A stretch of DNA of 64,000 bases, taken from the NCBI GenBank assembly GCA_016873165.1, contig VGXV01000004.1, positions 1 through 64,000 of the forward strand, read 5' to 3'. This stretch comes from Planctomycetota bacterium (GTDB lineage Bacteria; Planctomycetota; Brocadiia; Brocadiales; Brocadiaceae). Both the position numbers and the translations under genes were made by a program. The notes below the pieces were generated by a model. That model searched no databases and was not told the DNA's origin. It saw nothing but the letters and a program-made list of their open reading frames with translations. Below, in pieces: positions 3,122 through 14,385 of this stretch (its first letter is position 1; the number at the start of each line of letters is the position of its first letter).

Positions 3122-3204
3122 TACAGGTGGCAACCTGGCATTCTTCCTTAAAAAGAAGACCCATGGCTTTGCGTCCCAACCTCACGATTGGTTTGCCGTT
3201 TAAG
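3122..3204 (-). promoter_or_regulatory. Cyclic-di-GMP-I (GEMM-I) riboswitch
   Basis: Read on the minus strand, the aptamer contains GGCAAACC (3190-3197). A hairpin CCAATC-GTGA-GGTTGG with a GNRA tetraloop follows, then the class hallmark GGGACGCAAAGCC (3165-3177). A second hairpin TCTTC...GAAGA comes next and the 3' strand GGTTGCC (3129-3135) closes P1 with GGCAA. These elements, in this order, define class I cyclic-di-GMP riboswitches. The aptamer starts a few bases after a predicted promoter and lies about 250 bases before the poly-Asp gene, with a terminator between. Whether ligand turns the gene on or off cannot be read from sequence alone. Confidence 0.9.
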
Positions 3205-3210
3205 TATATA

Positions 3211-9507: not shown

Positions 9508-10419
9508 CTAACTTTTTTCTGGACCTTTGCCAAAAAGACCCTCTATCCTCAGAGTAAGGCGCCTTTTCAACTCTTCCTTGTTGTCATTTGTCCATTCAAT
9601 AAAGTAATACTGACGAATATCAAAATGAAGATTCTTTAGATCATCCTTCTCACAAAGCCAAAACACCTCTAACCCCAACCCCTTTGCAAATCCCGCCTCA
9701 AAATAAACACCGCCTCTATGCCTAGTAAAATCAGCAACAACAAACTTACTTCTTCTTATTTGAGCTATAATTTCATCATCAATTTTGTCATTATGTTCTC
9801 TCAAATCGACTTTGTGAGGTAGATATCCAGCGTCGGATATTGCCGGTGCAATTGCTTCTTCATACAATGATTTCAAATCATCAGAAAAACACATCGCAAC
9901 AAATCCTTGAGAGCTTTTTGAATTAGTTTTCGACAATTCTTCCAATCGTATCCATCCATTAGCAAGTACTTTATATTTATTTAACCATATTTGCGATTCT
10001 ATGATAACAAATATTCTTTTTGTTGTAATTAAGTAATCAGTTACGGCCTGTAATTCTTCTTCATTTACACACCAAGCCCTACTAATAAATGATTTATCAA
10101 ATTGAATTGAAGCACCTGCGAAATCAGATCTAGCGGCGATATGGCAAAGCAGACTATCTGCTCTATCAATAAATGACGGTAGTTTTAATTTGATTAGAAA
10201 GTTATCGAGGTTCTCTGAAGTTATTTCATATCCCTCATTTTCCGCTAGCCAACCCGATATGTTTGCCTTTTGTCGCTGCGTTAGTCTTCTTCTCCCGATT
10301 AACATTTCAATTTTTGCGTCTGCCGTATATTTTCCACATTGTGGACAATCTAAATATTTTCTATCTCTTGACCACATGTTTGATTTACATTTATTTAGGC
10401 AAATAGGACATTGTTCCAT
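9508..10419 (-). CDS. Zinc-ribbon protein with C-terminal deoxyribosyltransferase/TIR-like domain
   Basis: 303 residues. Residues 1-30 hold a zinc ribbon (CPIC...CPQCGKY). The middle is helical with WxHTH-like character. The C-terminal 130 residues form a Rossmann-like domain: GFVAMCFSDDL, YEEAIAPAISDAGYLP, EHNDKIDDEIIAQIRRSKFVVADF, then GGVYFEAGFAKGLG. This domain family is related to nucleoside 2-deoxyribosyltransferases and TIR-like NAD-binding folds, with a conserved Glu in YFEAGFA. A nucleotide hydrolase or defence effector role is inference only. It starts ATG with a purine-rich leader and lies at the edge of the mobile island with no obvious partner. Confidence 0.7.
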   Translation of the reverse strand: MEQCPICLNKCKSNMWSRDRKYLDCPQCGKYTADAKIEMLIGRRRLTQRQKANISGWLAENEGYEITSENLDNFLIKLKLPSFIDRADSLLCHIAARSDFAGASIQFDKSFISRAWCVNEEELQAVTDYLITTKRIFVIIESQIWLNKYKVLANGWIRLEELSKTNSKSSQGFVAMCFSDDLKSLYEEAIAPAISDAGYLPHKVDLREHNDKIDDEIIAQIRRSKFVVADFTRHRGGVYFEAGFAKGLGLEVFWLCEKDDLKNLHFDIRQYYFIEWTNDNKEELKRRLTLRIEGLFGKGPEKS

Positions 10420-10579: not shown

Positions 10580-11185
10580 TTACGAATCCGCCAACTTATC
10601 CAAAATACTCCGCAACAGCCGTGGATCAATATAGCGGATGCCTAGTTTGTCTGCCCATTTGACGATGCCGGTGTCGGCGGTCATCAGGATGCCTTCCATT
10701 TCTTTTGCAAGGAGGATTAAATCGACGTCCTCTTTGCTGTCAATAATCCCCTCGCGCAGAGCCATGCGGTATTTTTTTCTGAGGTTCGCGATGGCCTCGG
10801 GTTCGGTATCGGGAGAGGCTTCTCTTACCGCAGTTTCCGCCACCCGCAATCCCTTATCGATCCTTTGCCGGACGTCTTCAATGAGTTCGTAGAGCAAAAA
10901 GGCGGGCACGGTCAGTTCGTAACGTTTGGGGGCTTTCTGGCGTATCAGCATTTGCAGGTCGATATGGATGTCTTTTATCTCCACAAAGGTAAGAAGCTCC
11001 TCATAAATCGTCTGCGGCATATAAAAGGTAGGCCCTTCCAGTTTGCTGATAATTTCCAGAAAAGAGCGCAAGGCGTCCGTCGGGTCGTTGCCAAAGGTAT
11101 GATAAACATCAGGATTGGTAAAAATGCTGGTATCGATGACTACCTTTTCATGGATGAGTTGTTCATGTTTTATGTCTTTTTGCAT
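10580..11185 (-). CDS. RNA-free ribonuclease P (HARP; PIN-domain, UPF0278)
   Basis: 201 residues. The opening [17 protein letters not shown], the central [19 protein letters not shown] with KGLRVAE, and the block [17 protein letters not shown] followed by TADTGI and [12 protein letters not shown] match the HARP family closely. This is the minimal protein-only RNase P first described from Aquifex aeolicus Aq_880, earlier annotated as RNA ligase partner protein. The acidic residues D18, D153, D155 and D171 fit PIN active-site positions. HARP removes 5' leaders from pre-tRNA. The gene overlaps the 3' end of the GlmU-like gene by 16 bases, so they are probably co-transcribed. Whether this genome also has RNA-based RNase P is not visible here. 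Confidence 0.9.
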
Positions 11186-12417
11186 ATCGTTCTTTCCTGT
11201 TCGGTAAGCTCAAATATCTTTTTAAAAAGCGTCTCTTCGGCAGCGGACATTTCCTTTCCCCGCCTTCCCATGGCAACTTTTGCCACGTTTAAAACCTTTT
11301 CTAAAATGTACACGATAACCCCGTGATCGGAACACCATGAGAACGAAGGGAGATATTTCGGGGGATAGCGGTTGGTGACGATATTGCAGGCATACCCAAT
11401 GACGCTTCCCGTCATGATCGTCGTATTTATAGCGGTTTTTGTGTGGTCTCCCATTGCCATGCCCAGAAAATTGTGGTTTGTGTTGATGAGTTCATTTCCC
11501 ATCTGGACTTTTATGCTGCCATAGGTATTCAGCAGATTGCTGTTCGTTGTATCCGCCCCGATATTCACCCATGAGCCAATATAGGAGTCGCCCAGAAATC
11601 CGTCATGCTGTTTATTGGTATAGCTGTGGAATATCGTGTTTACGTTTTCTCCCCCGATCTTGCACACATCTCCAATATTCGTTCCTCCCCGCAATCGTGA
11701 ATTGGCCTGTACTACAGAATTATCTCCTATATACACAGGGCCTTCGATGGTGGTGTTGGGGGAGATGGTGACGTTATTGCCAATATACACCGGGCCGTTT
11801 TCGGCGTCTATTACACAGCAGGGCTTTATCCTGCTGTCTTTCCCGATATGTATTTTATCTTTGTTCAGGAGATACGCGCCTTCGTAAATATTTCCCATGT
11901 TCCGCACTTCTTTGACAAATAAAGAGAAGTCTTCCTTTATTTGTGAGACATTGCGTTTTACAACGTCCCAGTAATAATGCAACGCCGGAACCCTGCTCTC
12001 AACACAGGGAAATGTTTTTTTCAGTTTCTCAACAGCATTTTCCTGAAGAAATGTGTCATGGGATATTTTCCCTGAAAAGTTCTTTTTGAGACGAAGGTAA
12101 ATAATCGTGTCTCCCTGTATGCCAAGTTCTTCAGGACCATCGGGAGAAACAGAGTTTGAGAAAATCGCGCGTCCATTGATAAAAAGGCAGTTATCCGCCG
12201 ATGCAGGGGGCACATTTACCTCCAAAGAATAGCGTTCTTTTACAACATCAGCAAGATAGTCCCTGCAGAAAAGGGTAATTTTGGAACCGGGATAGAGTTT
12301 ATGCACCCTCTCCATCTGAGTATACATGCCGCAGCGGAGTTCAAACGTTGCCCTCGCGTATACAAGGGGAAAAAGGCGTGAATAGTTGAAGTCTTCGAAA
12401 ATACAAATATGAGACAC
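11170..12417 (-). CDS. GlmU-like sugar-nucleotidyl/acyltransferase family protein
   Basis: 415 residues from a GTG start with an AGAGGG ribosome binding site 9 bases upstream. The N-terminal third ([24 protein letters not shown]) is the putative sugar-nucleotidyltransferase domain seen in Bacteroidetes and planctomycete GlmU-like proteins. From about residue 185 a left-handed beta-helix of hexapeptide repeats follows ([26 protein letters not shown]). These proteins are thought to act in UDP-GlcNAc or related sugar supply, but the canonical GlmU pyrophosphorylase signature is absent, so the reaction is uncertain. It overlaps the HARP gene. Confidence 0.8.
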
Positions 12418-12765: not shown

Positions 12766-14385
12766 ATGAATCAAACTGCGACAAATATACGTTTATTAAC
12801 GATCCTTCTCGTGTTGTTTCTTTCATTTCTCTTTCTTTTCAATACGGGAAACAGGGATCTCTGGGCGCCTGACGAACCTCGCTACGCGCAGGTTTCCAAG
12901 GAAATGCGGGACAGCGGCAATTTTATTCTCCCGCAGTTAAACGGTGAGCCGTATCCCCACAAGCCCCCCCTTTTATTCTGGATGATCAATCTGTTTTCGA
13001 TTCCCTTCGGCAAAATAACGCACCTGTCAGGGCGTTTGCCTTCCGCTTTCGCGGGGGTGGGATGCTGCCTCATACTCTTTAATTTCGCGCGGAATGTTTT
13101 TCAAAATACGCGGATCGGCCTGCTGGCAGCCCTTATCCTTGCCACAAGCATGAAGTTCCTCTGGATGTCGCACCGCGTGGCATTTGACGTCCTTCTGACC
13201 TTTTTTGTAATGGCATCCCTGTTTAGCTTTTATAAAGGATACACAGAAGACAAAAACAAGGTGCGCAGCTATACCCTCTTTTATCTATTCATGGCGCTCG
13301 GGGTGCTTACCAAAGGCCCTGTGGGATTTCTCCTTCCGTTTCTTACGGTAGTGGCATATTTATTTCTGAAAAGGGACATACGGGTTTTAAAGGAGACAAA
13401 ACCATGGATTGGGGGAGTCCTCTTTGCCATTCTGGTATTCTCATGGGTGTACCTGGCAAGCATATACGGCGGAAAGGAATACACACAGCAAATAATGTTC
13501 AAACAAAACGTCGGAAGGTTTGCTGATTCGTTTGCCCATAAACGGCCGTTTTATTACTTCTTTATCCAGTTCCCCCTGAATTATTTTCCGTGGAGCATCT
13601 TTATCCCCAGCACGGCGCTGTTTCTGTTTTCACGGGAAGGGAGAAAGAAGTTTCAGGAAGTTTCATTTCCGGCGGTCTGGTTTGCGGTTATCTTCGTTTT
13701 CTTTTCCATTGTTTCCGGGAAAAGGGATATCTACGTCCTTCCGCTGTATCCCGCCGCATCGTTGATTATCGCATGGTTTTTAAATGAGTTTATCGGACAA
13801 TTCAGGGATCTCCGGTTCAGAAGAACAGGCTACATCCCCTGTTACTTCGCAAGCGGTTTGTCCATGTTTTTAGGCTTGCTCCTGCCGGTTGGCGTTTACA
13901 AATTTCTCCCCGAACATGTTCGCCTGACCATACCGTTTGTGATACTCCTTTTTGCCGGTGGCATCATTATGCTGCGCTGCACAAAACGCTCAAGAATACT
14001 GCCCTTTCTCTTTACCCTTATTATGCTTGTTTTCCTTACCTTTACCATCAGCACCTTGCGGGTAATTCCCCTGTTAAACCAGCACAAATCGGCGAAGGAA
14101 ATTTGCGATACGGCAAACGCCGTAATGAAACCGAATGAACCTTTGGCCATGTATGGTTTTCTGAGGGATACGTATCTGTTTTATACGGACAGAAACCACA
14201 TAGAGGTTATTCATGAACCGGAGGATTTGAAAAAATATCTGATCTCAGAGGAACAGGTCTTTCTGTTTATCCAGGATAAAGATTTTGTGAAGATTACGGA
14301 GTCGTTAGAAATACCCGTCTTCGTCCTCGCAAAGGACTCAGTCGGCCACCGGAAGATGTTTTTCGTTTCGAACAGGGATATGTGA
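12766..14385 (+). CDS. GT39/ArnT-like membrane glycosyltransferase
   Basis: 539 residues with about 11-12 membrane helices and a first periplasmic loop carrying DLWAPDEPRYAQVSKEM, whose Asp-Glu pair is the catalytic signature of ArnT/PMT-type (GT83/GT39) enzymes. PYPHKPPLLFWMIN follows, as in ArnT. These enzymes move a sugar from a polyprenyl-phosphate donor to lipid A or protein on the outer face of the membrane. The C-terminal 110 residues form a soluble domain. It stands alone on the plus strand, with no ArnABC-type genes nearby, so the acceptor is unknown. Confidence 0.85.
   Translation: MNQTATNIRLLTILLVLFLSFLFLFNTGNRDLWAPDEPRYAQVSKEMRDSGNFILPQLNGEPYPHKPPLLFWMINLFSIPFGKITHLSGRLPSAFAGVGCCLILFNFARNVFQNTRIGLLAALILATSMKFLWMSHRVAFDVLLTFFVMASLFSFYKGYTEDKNKVRSYTLFYLFMALGVLTKGPVGFLLPFLTVVAYLFLKRDIRVLKETKPWIGGVLFAILVFSWVYLASIYGGKEYTQQIMFKQNVGRFADSFAHKRPFYYFFIQFPLNYFPWSIFIPSTALFLFSREGRKKFQEVSFPAVWFAVIFVFFSIVSGKRDIYVLPLYPAASLIIAWFLNEFIGQFRDLRFRRTGYIPCYFASGLSMFLGLLLPVGVYKFLPEHVRLTIPFVILLFAGGIIMLRCTKRSRILPFLFTLIMLVFLTFTISTLRVIPLLNQHKSAKEICDTANAVMKPNEPLAMYGFLRDTYLFYTDRNHIEVIHEPEDLKKYLISEEQVFLFIQDKDFVKITESLEIPVFVLAKDSVGHRKMFFVSNRDM

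Follow-up and report, generated by a model that had tools for sequence, protein, structure and literature searches.

The retention of a second, protein-only RNase P by some prokaryotes has yet to be explained (PMC10941002, PMC12153264). In bacteria, HARP and the RNA-based enzyme have already been reported to coexist in most cases (PMC6380272, PMC10941002), and the genomic context described for bacterial HARP genes is a convergent gene for the RNA ligase Rnl3, co-localized with HARP in 127 of 164 bacterial cases (PMC12153264). Five bacterial orders with HARP are named in the text of the latter paper, with a link to extreme habitats; Planctomycetes are named for HARP in PMC10941002. The closest described enzyme, PbHARP, cut pre-tRNA at the canonical and a neighbouring upstream site, reaching about 6% in 20 minutes; its catalytic residues are D151, D155 and D173, its two-helix domain contacts the tRNA elbow through R116, R123, R138 and R142, and R108, R110 and R146 are close to the active site (PMC9051087). 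Activity is not certain for every member of the family, since four recombinant bacterial HARPs formed oligomers and did not process pre-tRNA (PMC12153264). An annotated RNase P was counted in Scalindua profunda (PMC3655542), and full-text searches of the literature library, combining RNase P or RNA ligase with anammox and protein-only RNase P with the anammox genera, gave no treatment of HARP in anammox bacteria among the papers listed.

The window analyzed here is a 64,000-nucleotide stretch of a Planctomycetota genome (G000; 4.05 Mb in 191 contigs, listed as 100% complete). The HARP gene and its neighbours are arranged as follows:

9508..10419, minus strand: 303-aa protein downstream of HARP, with weak Nuc_deoxyrib_tr and TIR resemblance
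10580..11185, minus strand: HARP (protein-only RNase P), 201 aa, ATG start at 11185 and end at 10580; catalytic Asp D149, D153 and D171; elbow-contact Arg R114, R121, R136 and R140; further Arg R106, R108 and R144
11170..12417, minus strand: alt_bact_glmU (UDP-GlcNAc diphosphorylase / GlcN-1-P acetyltransferase-like), 415 aa, GTG start; TIGR03991, E 5.4e-111
12766-14385, plus strand: ArnT-like glycosyltransferase, divergent from the GlmU-like gene; NF009784, 170.6 bits, under the cut-off of 567

A c-di-GMP-I-GGC riboswitch aptamer was also detected in the window (3125-3206, minus strand; 59.1 bits against a gathering cut-off of 59).

The sequence-only reading had identified the gene as a HARP, likening its motifs to those of Aq_880 of Aquifex, and both points were borne out. 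The protein matched Pfam PIN_5 (PF08745; E 1.5e-60, 204.6 bits, cut-off 27) and NCBIfam TIGR03875 (RNA_lig_partner, 'RNA ligase partner protein'; E 1.9e-60, 203.8 bits, cut-off 95.3). PADLOC gave no match for the protein. Among 13 sequences returned by a PDB search, seven distinct matching ones are named RNA-free ribonuclease P, with 7e8k the best (E 5e-80) and 7f3e, which we take to be Aq_880 of Aquifex aeolicus, at E 1.1e-54; the remaining six scored E 0.35 or worse. Both motifs quoted for the Aq_880 likeness can be read in the ORF, and the profile and PDB scores place that likeness beyond chance. Residues of PbHARP were transferred to the window protein through a gapless alignment, the shift of two being deduced from the motifs surrounding D149. 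Across 111 aligned HARP rows (the window plus loci L004-L113; 85 distinct sequences), D149, D153 and D171 were identical throughout, as were R106, R108, R114, R136, R140 and R144, and R121 was kept in 109 rows. The catalytic Asp triad and the elbow Arg set, both hallmarks of HARP, are present in the window protein. Judged by profile HMMs, solved relatives and residue conservation, the ORF is a genuine HARP and an ordinary member of the known family. In the Brocadia group, an insertion of 40 columns follows window residue 123 of HARP, in the linker between the two tRNA-elbow helices (R121-R136); it was found in 18 of 110 loci (L048-L054, L056 and ten loci under genome handles). An apparent split HARP gene in genome G020, suggested by two profile matches, proved to be one open frame of 235 aa with an insert.

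Comparisons were made with a locus set (L034-L113, the best 80 of 183 places encoding a relative) and with 147 relatives searched as genomes, where group f1 is the window's family and group f4 was assigned to the Scalindua type by its lesions and a gene order common with Scalindua loci; the two sets overlap, so that their counts are not fully independent. The closest HARP among the best 80 of 183 loci was that of Candidatus Kuenenia hertensis (L034), which is 93% identical and has three window neighbours of HARP in the same arrangement; the HARP tree paired the two with a support of 100. The window's genome is that of an anammox bacterium of the Kuenenia group. HARP exceeded the cut-off in 45 of the 147 relatives, distributed as 31/33 in f1, 13/17 in f4 and 1/1 in f3, with none in f2 (0/9), f5 (0/2) or the relatives outside the order. 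The two f1 genomes without HARP over the cut-off were G009 (85% complete) and G025, in which the ligase gene reaches the end of its contig on the side where HARP is expected. Retention of HARP is unusually regular in the window's lineage and near-universal in one family.

It had further been proposed that tRNA maturation depends on HARP if the chromosome lacks rnpB. This conditional does not apply, because G000 has both a class A rnpB covering the whole model (C33:12115-12498, 291.3 bits) and rnpA in an open frame (C12:36814-37086, 99.8 bits), together with a single HARP copy by profile search; the Aquifex-like state, in which neither rnpB nor rnpA is present, was not encountered in G000. Over the 147 relatives searched, rnpB exceeded the cut-off in 134. 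Both rnpB over the cut-off and rnpA accompanied HARP in 24 of 31 f1 genomes with HARP, one or both being missing in G006, G008, G011, G015, G016, G021 and G027, and in the 13 f4 genomes with HARP rnpB exceeded the cut-off in 10 and rnpA was found in all. Repeating the search with higher sensitivity in 17 chosen genomes again revealed no rnpB in G046, G048 and G052. These were rejected as examples of HARP without the RNA enzyme; because all three carry rnpA, an assembly gap is likelier, an unusual RNA being another candidate explanation. The L15 GGU motif of rnpB, presumably CCA-binding, was also set aside as a correlate of HARP: a strict pattern read only 6 of 36 sequences, a loose one produced many spurious extracts, and the readable sequences revealed no difference between HARP-positive f1 and HARP-negative f2 genomes.

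The GlmU-like gene upstream of HARP ends 16 bases inside it (11170-11185), exactly the overlap given in the sequence-only reading, and the two genes are probably co-transcribed. An identical overlap was present in both other Kuenenia genomes read, and spacings ranged from a 113-base gap to a 47-base overlap in another 24 locus readings, which include repeated readings of the same genome. The claim that this context differs from known ones stands in so far as the published bacterial context is the convergent ligase, but the adjacency itself is family-wide, and most of these loci also have the ligase. Among the best 80 of 183 loci, all 22 of the Brocadiaceae type (L034-L054 and L056, counting partial matches or pieces in L051, L053 and L056) have the GlmU-like gene upstream of HARP; none of the 11 loci of the Scalindua clade (L057-L067) has it by HARP, nor does the one remaining locus (L055). 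The GlmU pairing is common to the family, and the absent ligase is a local change in Kuenenia, since GlmU and HARP stay together and the break falls between HARP and Rnl3. The 303-aa protein downstream scored 23.9 bits as a nucleoside deoxyribosyltransferase, under the cut-off, and 1.1e-10 as a TIR protein in PADLOC; it is also found downstream of HARP in Ca. Kuenenia hertensis and is probably outside the HARP system.

Rnl3 of G000 is not adjacent to HARP and lies on a separate contig (C33:22270-23370; TIGR01209, 338.2 bits against a cut-off of 136.9). Its counterpart in the genus mate G002 matched PF18330 and PF09414 and, among solved Pab1020-type ligases, 2vug (E 2.1e-79). HARP and Rnl3 are 1.19 Mb apart in the single-contig genome G001, and all three Kuenenia genomes have Rnl3 elsewhere, still with a TrkA_N-DHH-DHHA1 gene and a further gene. 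Among the best 80 of 183 loci, Rnl3 was convergent with HARP in 18 of 22 Brocadiaceae-type loci and, whole or as remains, in 11 of 11 Scalindua loci. Of 43 genomes having entries for the two genes, broken ligases included, 37 likewise had them convergent within 351 bases; in the other six, G000-G004 and G006, they are not convergent neighbours. HARP without any ligase entry occurred in G034 (77% complete, its contig ending soon after HARP) and in G055. The unusual feature of the window is the split pair: Rnl3, normally tail-to-tail with HARP, is elsewhere in Kuenenia and a few other genera. Two other associations of the ligase were examined and discarded. Rnl3 lies 9.8 kb from rnpB in G000 (C33) and 6.5 kb in G004 (C131), which represent two genera, but the distance is 658 kb in G001 and the ligases of G000 and G004 are on opposite sides of dnaG-rpoD-rnpB, so the closeness was treated as coincidence. 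Of 32 loci offering 1500 bases of space, 27 have the TrkA_N-DHH-DHHA1 gene in divergent orientation to Rnl3, but its product does not track HARP as a third partner would, because it is also found in HARP-negative f2 (4/9) and f5 (2/2) genomes.

In the Nitrospirota clade, Rnl3 was present in 15 of 46 HARP loci among the best 80 of 183. Within the same set, a DHH-CBS-PolyA_pol protein is encoded immediately upstream of Rnl3, in the same orientation, in seven of these 15, and none of the 31 Nitrospirota-clade HARP loci without Rnl3 has it. The protein resembles an A-adding tRNA nucleotidyltransferase; domains were checked in two of the seven and NCBIfam in four, all four of which scored 800-872 bits against NF041569, under its cut-off of 1440. 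The Rnl3 tree places all seven loci in a single clade of ten rows, the other three of which are near contig ends, and the linkage is therefore taken as a single event; the common theme that it suggests is tRNA ends. A TPR/LapB-like protein family was present in 43 of the 46 Nitrospirota-clade HARP loci (L068-L113, among the best 80 of 183), its gene usually just before HARP in seven maps and accompanied by nadD, rsfS or a gene for an RlmH-type SPOUT methyltransferase.

Selection on the genes was estimated by simple pairwise Nei-Gojobori comparison. Among the three Kuenenia genomes, with dS reaching 1.13, dN/dS was 0.048-0.066 for HARP, 0.13-0.14 for the GlmU-like gene and 0.09-0.11 for Rnl3; HARP of the window type is under strong purifying selection. 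The HARP and Rnl3 trees, built by a quick method without bootstrap, each separated anammox sequences from mostly Nitrospirota ones and resolved Brocadiaceae and Scalindua as separate groups (support of 71 for the Brocadiaceae branch in the HARP tree). The simplest reading is that HARP and Rnl3 have been kept vertically since before the Brocadiaceae/Scalindua split. Natural losses were found in Scalindua-type genomes. HARP is open in G055 (L191), where Rnl3 is a short 3' remnant with a stop, in G052 (L195), where an internal deletion leaves a 123-aa Rnl3 frame (the identical lesion in L062 is likely from the same genome), and in G038 (L269), where Rnl3 has two frameshifts that could be assembly errors (the same in L067, likely again one genome). 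Only remnants of either gene are left in G061 (L270), with a 33-aa match for HARP and matches of 53-79 aa for Rnl3, and G035 (L194) retains a 42-aa HARP match, with Rnl3 gone except for a doubtful match. Rnl3 over the cut-off beside a decayed HARP was not seen in any genome searched. HARP dN/dS was 0.046-0.106 in pairs with a ligase-broken genome versus 0.053-0.080 in three ligase-bearing pairs, and the only one of the 111 HARP rows with a changed K151 was that of G055; HARP may be mildly relaxed in ligase-broken genomes. Its survival there suggests that HARP has value without Rnl3.

We consider that HARP in this genome acts as an auxiliary RNase P beside the RNA-based enzyme, kept by selection for a narrower task (probability about 85%). 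The window HARP is a metallonuclease of the PIN-domain type (PIN_5), predicted to function as an oligomer and to remove the 5' leader of pre-tRNA. By homology to PbHARP (7e8k/7e8o), one HARP dimer is predicted to hold the tRNA elbow via the conserved Arg of the two-helix domain, and an adjacent dimer to cleave at -1/+1 using metal ions coordinated by D149, D153 and D171; the products would be a tRNA bearing a 5'-phosphate and a leader ending in a 3'-OH. Rnl3 is likely an accessory able to use 5'-phosphate and 3'-OH ends, and the RNA-based RNase P most likely does the bulk of tRNA processing in G000. ARAGORN, applied around 45 tRNA matches with identical sequences counted once, gave 45 tRNA genes in G000, with an encoded CCA in 30 and none in 15. 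Addition of a 3' CCA slowed H. thermophilus HARP tenfold on native pre-tRNA (PMC10652100); if the kinetics of this one enzyme, on which the argument draws, are transferable, HARP would be a poor general enzyme here, and the window HARP might favour the 15 CCA-less pre-tRNAs.

It is very unlikely that HARP is the main or only RNase P of the cell, even though HARP rescued RNase P-defective E. coli and yeast by complementation and is apparently the sole RNase P in Aquifex (PMC12153264), and one of the 45 HARP-positive relatives (G027, 58% complete) has neither rnpB over the cut-off nor rnpA. The full-length rnpB and open rnpA frame of G000 contradict such a role in that genome, and its 30 CCA-encoding tRNA genes also speak against it. 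Another RNA-cutting role, with RNase P activity as a side reaction, is less far-fetched though still rather improbable. The weak activity of PbHARP (PMC9051087), the coexisting RNA-based enzyme and the absence of a growth phenotype in archaeal HARP knock-outs (PMC12153264, PMC10941002) would all suit it, but each elbow-contact Arg is retained by at least 109 of 111 rows, consistent with ongoing recognition of tRNA. The latter argument is soft, because changing the elbow Arg singly to Ala did not obviously affect how full-length PbHARP bound pre-tRNA (PMC9051087).

Other explanations involve the ligase. A toxin-antitoxin pair, with HARP as the toxin, was raised and called unlikely for one archaeon (PMC12153264); the PIN/VapC-like fold given for HARP in the literature and the prevalent convergent order of the two genes are compatible with it. 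However, a toxin should not outlive its antitoxin, and in the three Scalindua-type genomes described above a still constrained, open HARP stands beside an Rnl3 gene that is broken or almost lost. As the reverse was unseen in the genomes searched, this argues against Rnl3 as an antitoxin; Rnl3 over the cut-off without HARP occurred only in G025, with the ligase at a contig end. We regard such a pair as highly improbable here. Maturation and circularization of C/D-box RNAs by HARP and Rnl3 is a main proposal of PMC12153264, from archaeal data that include circularization of these RNAs by Rnl3. In a search of 61 genomes, fibrillarin (PF01269) had no match in G000, so that the proposal lacks its machinery there, and the matches in 25 genomes were all partial and at 28.5 bits or less, six just reaching the cut-off of 27. 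They fell mostly near profile positions 64-133 of 227, presumably the methyltransferase-fold region. To our knowledge, C/D-box RNPs are not known in bacteria, and the proposal is scarcely credible for this genome. A tentative and on balance unlikely extension of the auxiliary role is that HARP and Rnl3 form a bacterial module for tRNA-end repair or circularization, separate from C/D-box biology and kept beside the RNA-based RNase P since before Brocadiaceae and Scalindua diverged. HARP would make a 5'-phosphate end that Rnl3 joins to a 3'-OH, with tRNA 3'-end enzymes taking part in some lineages, and the module would be kept perhaps for the CCA-less pre-tRNAs (15 of 45 genes) or for damaged tRNAs.

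Anammox bacteria provide a clean bacterial case of a second RNase P, combining near-universal retention in one family, strong purifying selection, a resident RNA enzyme, no fibrillarin match in G000 and lineages with a broken ligase and an intact HARP; why a second RNase P is kept is testable in these organisms, where two published ideas do not fit. With respect to known systems, PbHARP of Planctomycetes bacterium GWF2_40_8 aligns without gaps over window residues 2-198 and shares its catalytic Asp and elbow Arg with the window protein. Over 198 of 198 residues, the 7e8k chain and the L064 HARP are identical; the latter falls in the Scalindua clade of the HARP tree and matches the window HARP at 130 of 196 residues. 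The tested PbHARP is therefore of an anammox-type lineage. Unlike the window, its clade has no GlmU-like gene by HARP (0/11) and keeps Rnl3 or its remains adjacent (11/11; among the best 80 of 183 loci). Aq_880, the Aquifex aeolicus HARP, is of the same family, motifs and size as the window HARP, but Aquifex is without the RNA-based RNase P (PMC12153264) that the window's genome possesses. The HARP-Rnl3 pairs of PMC12153264 likewise join HARP and a TIGR01209 ligase in one genome and are convergent, as in most relatives examined here, whereas the pair is split in G000 and its two genus mates, which belong to Brocadiales, an order absent from those named in the text of that study.
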